64,000 bases of DNA from Halorhabdus sp. CBA1104 (GTDB lineage: Archaea > Halobacteriota > Halobacteria > Halobacteriales > Haloarculaceae), in the NCBI RefSeq assembly GCF_009690625.1, contig NZ_CP033878.1, forward strand, positions 496,001 to 560,000, written 5' to 3'. Shown here piece after piece: positions 3,674 through 56,144 of this stretch. The notes under the pieces were generated by a model that had not been told where the DNA came from, made no database searches, and saw only the letters and a list, made by a program, of their open reading frames with translations. A program made the translations under genes and the position numbers. Position 1 is the stretch's first letter. Each line of letters starts with the position of its first letter.

Positions 3674-4804
3674 ATGCTTCCAATTATACCGCTCCAACTG
3701 GGAGAAATGGGGATCATCCCCATTGTCGGATTAATACTGTTGGCCATTGCCGTGGTGACCGTCTGGCAGATGGTCGTCATTACCGACGCGACTGAGAAGA
3801 AAGCCCTCACCGTCCTCGGGGAGTATCGGAAGCTCCTCGAACCCGGGATCGCGTTCGTGCCCCCGTTCGTCTCGGCGACTCACACCTTCGACATGCGGAC
3901 ACAGACCTTAGACGTCCCGCGCCAGGAAGCGATCACGCGGGACAACTCCCCGGTGACCGCCGACGCCGTCGTCTACATCAAGGTCATGGACGCAAAGAAG
4001 GCGTTCCTCGAAGTCGACGACTACAAACGGGCTGTCTCGAACCTCGCCCAGACGACGCTGCGGGCCGTCCTTGGCGACATGGAACTGGACGACACGCTGA
4101 ACAAACGCCAGGAGATCAACGCCAAGATCCGCCGGGAACTCGACGAACCCACAGACGAGTGGGGCATCCGCGTCGAGAGCGTCGAAGTCCGGGAGGTCAA
4201 CCCGAGCAAGGACGTCCAGCAGGCCATGGAGCAACAGACCTCCGCCGAGCGCCGCCGCCGCGCCATGATCCTCGAAGCCCAGGGTGAACGCCGCTCCGCC
4301 GTCGAGGAGGCCCAGGGTGAGAAGCAATCGAACATCATCCGTGCCCAGGGTGAAAAGCAGAGCCAGATCCTCGAAGCCCAGGGTGACGCAATTTCGACCG
4401 TCCTGCGCGCCAAATCCGCCGAGTCGATGGGCGAACGGGCGGTCATCGAACGTGGGATGGAGACCCTCGAAACGATCGGCGAAGGCGAGTCGACGAAGTT
4501 CGTCCTGCCACAGGAACTGACGTCGCTCGTCGGCCGGTACGGCAAGCACCTGACGGGTTCAGACACCCAGACCGACAGCGAGATGCTCGAAGGCCTCGAC
4601 TTCGACGAACAGACCCGCGAGATGCTCGGCCTGGACGACATCGAAAAGATCCTCGGCCAGATCGATCAGGAAGCCGAAGTGGACGTCGCAGAGATGGAAG
4701 AGCAGGCCCAGGCAGTCAAATCCGGCGCGGAAACGGCCGACATCAAGAACCCCGACGAAGTGATCGAGGAGATGGACGCCGACCTCGAAGCCGACGACAG
4801 CTGA
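3674..4804 (+). CDS. SPFH/band 7 (stomatin-prohibitin) membrane protein
   Basis: A 376-residue protein with one N-terminal membrane anchor (about residues 10-32), then a band-7 domain (EKKALTVLGEYRKLLEPGI through VREVNPSKDVQQAM). A long charged coiled coil follows, with regular AQGE repeats (EAQGERRSAVEEAQGEKQSN), ending in an acidic tail. SPFH proteins oligomerise and organise membrane microdomains or regulate membrane proteases; the exact partner is unknown. The ATG at 3674 is chosen over an in-frame upstream ATG because it begins the hydrophobic anchor directly. No NfeD or membrane protease gene is adjacent, so context gives no extra clue. Confidence 0.85.
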   Translation: MLPIIPLQLGEMGIIPIVGLILLAIAVVTVWQMVVITDATEKKALTVLGEYRKLLEPGIAFVPPFVSATHTFDMRTQTLDVPRQEAITRDNSPVTADAVVYIKVMDAKKAFLEVDDYKRAVSNLAQTTLRAVLGDMELDDTLNKRQEINAKIRRELDEPTDEWGIRVESVEVREVNPSKDVQQAMEQQTSAERRRRAMILEAQGERRSAVEEAQGEKQSNIIRAQGEKQSQILEAQGDAISTVLRAKSAESMGERAVIERGMETLETIGEGESTKFVLPQELTSLVGRYGKHLTGSDTQTDSEMLEGLDFDEQTREMLGLDDIEKILGQIDQEAEVDVAEMEEQAQAVKSGAETADIKNPDEVIEEMDADLEADDS

Positions 4805-54504: not shown

Positions 54505-56144
54505 TCAGCGCTCGCGGCGCAACCGACCGACGACGAACTCCTGATCTAACGCCGCGAGGAACGGCCCGAGCTTTGGCCCTTCATCGAGGTCGAACAGCAA
54601 CCGATAGCCGGCCGAAAAGAAGTCGCCGACGTCTAGGTCGTATTCGTCGGCGAGTTCGTAGATCCGACTCTGGATCGCCTCGCCGTCTTGCCCTGCCGCG
54701 ACGAACTCGGCGAGATCGTCCAGTGCGGCTGCCGTCTCGGTGTCGAACTCGACGGCCGGGAGTTCCTCGCGTTTGAGATCGTAGTTGAAGGCGTTGTCCG
54801 TCCGACGCGCCCACGTCCGGGCCTTCTCGACGCGATCGAGGGCGTCTTCGACAGCCCACGCCGGCGCATCATCGGGAATGTGGCCCTCGCGCCGGGCGAT
54901 CTCTTCCCGGAGGTCGGGGTCGTCGGTCATGGCCAGTACGGCGGCGAACGTGTAGGGAATCCGGACGCGTTCTTCACGCGGGTTCCCAACGGCGATGGGG
55001 TAGACCTGTGTGGCCCGCTCGCGCTCGTCGGTGTCGGCGTCGATCTCGCCGAAGTACACCCGTTCGAGGCGGTCGAATTCGTCGACGAGCTGATCGATGT
55101 TGGCGATATTGAAGTCACGCTGTTTGCGTGGGTCCTTACAGAAAAAGTACCGGAACACTTCCGGTTCGAGCAAGTCCAGGACTTCCGCGGCCGTGACGAC
55201 GTTCCCAGCCGAGGAGGACAGCGCATCGCCGTTCAGCGTGAACCACTCATAGACCATTGCGACCGGCGGCTCGACGTCAAGGACGTTCTGGGCGATGTCG
55301 ACACCCGACGGCCAGGACCCTCGGCGTGATCCTTGCCGAACGGCTCGAAGTCGACGTTGAGGACGCTCCACTGGGCCGGCCACTCGAAGCGCCACGGGAG
55401 TTTCCCGTCTTGGATGCCGACTGTCCCTTCGTGGCCACAGCCCGCAATGGTCTCGTCACCGACAGTAACGTCCTGGCACGTATACGAGACCGTCCCGGCG
55501 TCGGGATCGACGTCGGTGATGCCGTCCGTGAGGATCCCACAGGACTGGCACTCGGCCTGGAACGGGACGTAAGCCTCCCCGACGCTGTCTTGGTAGTCGG
55601 CCAGCACGTCACGGGCTGCTTGCTGGTTGGCCAGAACGTGTTTGGTAAGCTCCTCGAACGTCCCGTCTGCGTACAGATCGGTATTCGAGACGACCTCGAT
55701 CGGGATATCGAGCAGCTCCGCACTGCGAGCTAGCAGGGTCGTGAAGTGTGCCCCGTAGGAGTCACAACAGCCGAACGGGTCTGGAATCGCCGTATAGGGT
55801 TTGCCCAGATTGCGCCCGAGCGCGCCCGCGTCAACGTCTCCCAGTTCGACGATATTCCAGTCGAGATCGGCGAGCCGCCGGGGCAGCTTCCGTAGTCGGT
55901 CCTTGTCGTCACTCGTGAATACCTGCCGAACGTCGTGCCCACGATCGCGCAGGACTTCCGCGACGACGTACCCGCGGACGATCTCGTTGAGGTGGCCGAT
56001 GTGTGGGACACCTGACGGTGAGACTCCGCCCTTGATCACGATGGGTTCTGTCGGCTCACGCGCTTCGATCGCGTCTGCGACGGCCTGTCCCCAGAACGCG
56101 CGGTCGCTCTCTTCGATTGTCGTGTATGGATCGTGCTCAGTCAT
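54505..56144 (-). pseudogene. lysS: Class I lysyl-tRNA synthetase, split by a one-base frameshift
   Basis: Charges tRNA-Lys. The first part, from ATG 56144, has the HIGH box GVSPSGVPHIGHLNEIV, the lysine pocket, cysteine pairs (QAECQSCGI; AGCGHEG) and FEPFGKDHAEG. The frame then shifts near 55313-55322 and would end at 55233. The following frame continues exactly where the protein should: SWPSGVDIAQNVLDVEPPVA, the KMSKS-like LNGDALSSSAGNV, and the helical anticodon-binding domain to a stop at 54505. One restored base after the two G of the GAG-GG segment rejoins them to a normal length of about 546 residues. As this enzyme is normally the only lysyl-tRNA synthetase in haloarchaea, an error in the sequence is quite possible. 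Confidence 0.85.

Follow-up and report, generated by a model that had tools for sequence, protein, structure and literature searches.

Haloarchaea are supplied with lysine-charged tRNA by a class I lysyl-tRNA synthetase (LysRS; TIGR00467, PF01921), which is encoded by a single-copy gene, carries HIGH and KMSKS-type motifs and contains the sequence KDHAEGSW. The lysS gene of Halorhabdus sp. CBA1104 shares all of these features and its joined product has the common length of 546 aa, the sole difference being a junction that is one base short in the assembled DNA. Two kinds of described systems are close to such a locus. Long-read assemblies are well known to contain indel errors by which genes are fragmented (PMC12007338, Kastor), and the present assembly is like those in that scattered single-base errors split conserved genes and are exposed by comparison with reference genomes; unlike in those cases, the clean events here are losses at G/C runs, and there is about one in every 26 kb of the coding sequence that was compared. 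Genes with programmed -1 frameshifting, such as dnaX and those of transposases, also consist of two frames with a -1 step (PMC3711429), but lysS has neither the slippery heptamer, nor the conservation in relatives, nor the unusual downstream structure. Known programmed frameshift sites cluster in related genes, and singletons are likely to be indel mutations or sequencing errors (PMC3711429).

The genome is one contig of 2,628,395 bases (2.63 Mb, 99.99% complete), and the window, that is, the whole stretch of 64,000 nucleotides that was analysed, corresponds to its positions 496001-560000. The class I LysRS gene (window 54505-56144, minus strand) lies in two reading frames joined by a -1 shift, and a single open reading frame for the enzyme is absent from the assembled sequence (Table 1). 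The initial annotation had the frames meeting at about 55313-55322, and both its coordinates and its reading were right, the break being narrowed to the site given in Table 1 in agreement with three congeners.

Table 1. Parts of the interrupted lysyl-tRNA synthetase gene, in window coordinates
Feature	Position	Strand	Description
N-terminal part, class I lysyl-tRNA synthetase	55320..56144	-	275 codons, HIGH motif, frame 1; PF01921 and TIGR00467 matches
C-terminal part, same lysyl-tRNA synthetase	54505..55320	-	271 codons, KMSKS-type motif LSSSAGN, one frame back; PF01921 and TIGR00467 matches
Junction, one base short at G run	55316..55322	-	gene strand GAGGGTC; three congeners and 80 haloarchaeal loci

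The N-terminal open reading frame (55233-56144, minus strand) corresponds to positions 2-250 of PF01921 (E 8e-67) and the C-terminal one (54505-55395, minus strand) to positions 249-355 (E 4e-23), and because of these E values the matches of adjacent frames to consecutive halves of one family are not due to chance. The TIGR00467 profile of 515 positions is matched over its whole length, 2-240 in the N frame and 239-511 in the C frame, and the HIGH motif takes the form PHIGHLNE. On the gene strand the frames meet at GCC GAG followed by GGTCCTGG, and the join reads GCC GAG GGT CCT GG with the second frame restarting as GGG TCC TGG, a -1 step. The last in-frame codon of the N frame is GAG at 55322-55320 and the C frame resumes from 55320; therefore the sequence is one base short somewhere within about 55316-55322. 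When the halves are joined by the -1 step, with one base read twice, the protein is as long as its orthologue in H. salina, and the two share about 90% identity on either side of the join. The break is located at the identical base with each of the three congeners as a separate reference, it interrupts the otherwise invariant motif KDHAEGSW, and the junction peptide of a full-length enzyme would cover KDHAEGSWPSGVDIAQ. Substitutions relative to H. salina fall at third codon positions in 92 of 110 and 101 of 125 cases on the two sides of the break. Because such substitutions dominate in both halves, these are under the same protein-level constraint, and the whole protein has been selected until very recently, as expected of an intact gene.

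With a probability of roughly 96%, lysS is intact in the organism and the frame break is an assembly artefact caused by a base lost at the G run. The gene would then be an ordinary functional class I LysRS gene, of which one base of the short G run at about 55316-55322 would have been dropped from the assembled sequence, presumably through a consensus error of the sequencing technology; the intact true sequence and the consensus error are what we infer, rather than read directly, from the assembly. The word "broken", which had been applied to the gene, most likely describes the assembly and not the organism. This explanation is preferred because many equivalent single-base losses occur in other conserved genes, including that for RNA polymerase subunit B'.

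These losses were counted in two non-adjacent parts of the genome, 296001-760000 and 1720001-2120000 (0.86 Mb in total), by comparing the contig open reading frames of H. salina, the closest congener, with them by tblastn and retaining genes whose substitutions were mainly at third codon positions, which gave 428 orthologues and about 410 kb of coding sequence. A looser first count of frame breaks, 57 genes, was superseded after this filter on the codon-position substitution pattern, and apparent breaks near window position 4803 and genome position 357690 were rejected, the first segment not being constrained as coding. Among the 428 genes 21 frame breaks were found, 16 of which passed as strictly clean losses of one base, the surrounding alignment having no further gap; the strict filter for clean events retained losses only, and not one of the 21 was a clean single-base gain (+1). 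In the reverse comparison of the genome's own open reading frames with H. salina, the +1 events mirrored these losses, and once they were set aside about one comparable loss was left in H. salina. In-frame stops were dropped as a measure of error; they mostly reflect antisense or false open reading frames, because they were as frequent or more so in the reverse comparison.

Several unrelated conserved genes are thus broken alike, and the breaks are concentrated at homopolymer runs. All 16 clean losses have a G/C run of at least three within two bases, as compared with 17.5% of random positions, and 13 have a run of at least four, against a random expectation of 4.6%. The LysRS site is among the weaker ones, with a run of only three G as assembled. 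Clustering of this sort is what homopolymer consensus error produces. A point on the other side is that long G/C runs are only slightly rarer than in the congeners (runs of six, 140 per Mb versus 178-203), and, since the difference is only slight, run compression is not global and affects a small share of the runs. If the sampled rate holds, about a hundred G/C-run deletion errors would be expected in this assembly.

RNA polymerase subunit B' (genome C1:305278-307100) is the clearest sign of assembly error. Its gene lacks one base at a C run and falls into two frames, which share 98% and 99% identity with H. salina, and a further copy was sought in the genome and not found. A viable cell cannot lack this subunit; the missing base here, at any rate, must therefore be an error, and its signature recurs in the other losses. 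Genes for NAD kinase, ribose-phosphate diphosphokinase, uridine phosphorylase, the archaellum protein ArlJ, the DNA repair protein NreA, NADH-quinone oxidoreductase subunit A and RNase HI and an asparagine synthase-like gene are also split by the loss of a single base. Topoisomerase I, with a -1 break near its start and coding-type substitutions on both sides, has probably been hit in the same way too. Nulls in all these genes together would hardly be bearable for a living cell.

A second possibility is that a real and recent one-base deletion arose in the sequenced culture, as a pseudogene or in a mutant subpopulation, and that another enzyme, encoded for example on an unassembled plasmid, charges lysine. 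The local sequence would look no different after a very recent mutation; from the lysS break alone mutation and error are indistinguishable, and a plasmid could be missing from a single-contig assembly. However, a substitute was not found. The profiles PF01921 and TIGR00467 revealed no second class I LysRS in the whole genome, only the two halves being matched, and PF00152 and TIGR00499 revealed no class II LysRS, their sole match being one 434-aa protein. The initial annotation had offered a class II enzyme as a possible replacement, but this protein is an aspartyl-tRNA(Asn) ligase according to NCBIfam (599.6 bits, cut-off 353) and was rejected as such. Class I LysRS, taken in that annotation as the usual type in haloarchaea, occurs in every one of the family's 96 good genomes (146 genomes in the family set). 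Because of this ubiquity and because the genome contains no other LysRS, a true lysS null would have no visible substitute, although an unassembled plasmid is formally possible. Moreover, a real mutation would require RNA polymerase B' and NAD kinase to be true nulls too, and the losses cluster at G/C runs, so this possibility is considered very improbable. Still less credit can be given to a split enzyme whose halves are translated separately and assemble into an active synthetase. In favour of a split LysRS, the HIGH and KMSKS motifs do come to lie on opposite sides of the break, and there are precedents in other organisms, such as the split LeuRS and AlaRS of some prokaryotes; but the split would cut inside the invariant KDHAEGSW, translation of the C-terminal open reading frame from its first start (GTG 55395) would add 25 residues that are out of frame, the LysRS gene is open and undivided in all congeners, and the other broken genes are left unexplained.

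Full-length LysRS might also be made from a truly shifted gene by programmed -1 frameshifting, which the initial annotation had likewise put forward, or by transcriptional slippage, and precisely the expected protein would result if a single tRNA slipped by -1 at the junction, from GGT to GGG. Nevertheless this is extremely unlikely: the junction has no X_XXY_YYZ slippery heptamer and a run of three G only, and no frameshift site is conserved, KDHAEGSW being in frame in 80 of the 80 haloarchaeal homologues examined in GTDB genomes (only one of these loci has a short open reading frame, next to the end of its contig, and the motif is retained there). In addition, shuffled sequences fold at least as well as the 82 nt that follow the site, in a model without pseudoknots (z +0.76), and the LysRS shift is a singleton, which for frame-shifted genes points to indels or errors (PMC3711429). 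It is just as hard to believe that the organism truly carries many G/C-run losses, in LysRS, RNA polymerase B' and others, with the frame restored by slippage in transcription or translation, because there are thousands of G/C runs of at least four per Mb and they lie mostly in normally reading genes. Real shifts would oblige this archaeon to recode LysRS and RNA polymerase by a mechanism for which we know of no precedent. Of the explanations first offered for the two frames, sequence error is thus strongly supported by equivalent losses in many conserved genes, while a replacement enzyme and programmed frameshifting are contradicted.

An assembly error at lysS implies nothing unusual about the organism, and it is mainly a warning about data quality: without the reads, no gene should be called lost or a pseudogene on the strength of this assembly. 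In another genome of the family (G030, C1:1509454-1511033) the class I LysRS is also split in two frames, elsewhere in the protein (profile position ~127), and this is probably an assembly error too. There are two ribose-phosphate diphosphokinase genes in the present genome (C1:2305020-2305871 and 483931-484635), one of which is split by a missing base, while the other is matched with one TGA. Topoisomerase I (C1:382505-386665, minus strand) is interrupted in frame by an insert of some 530 aa, which is absent from H. salina and shows an intein splicing match, below its cut-off, together with LAGLIDADG matches.
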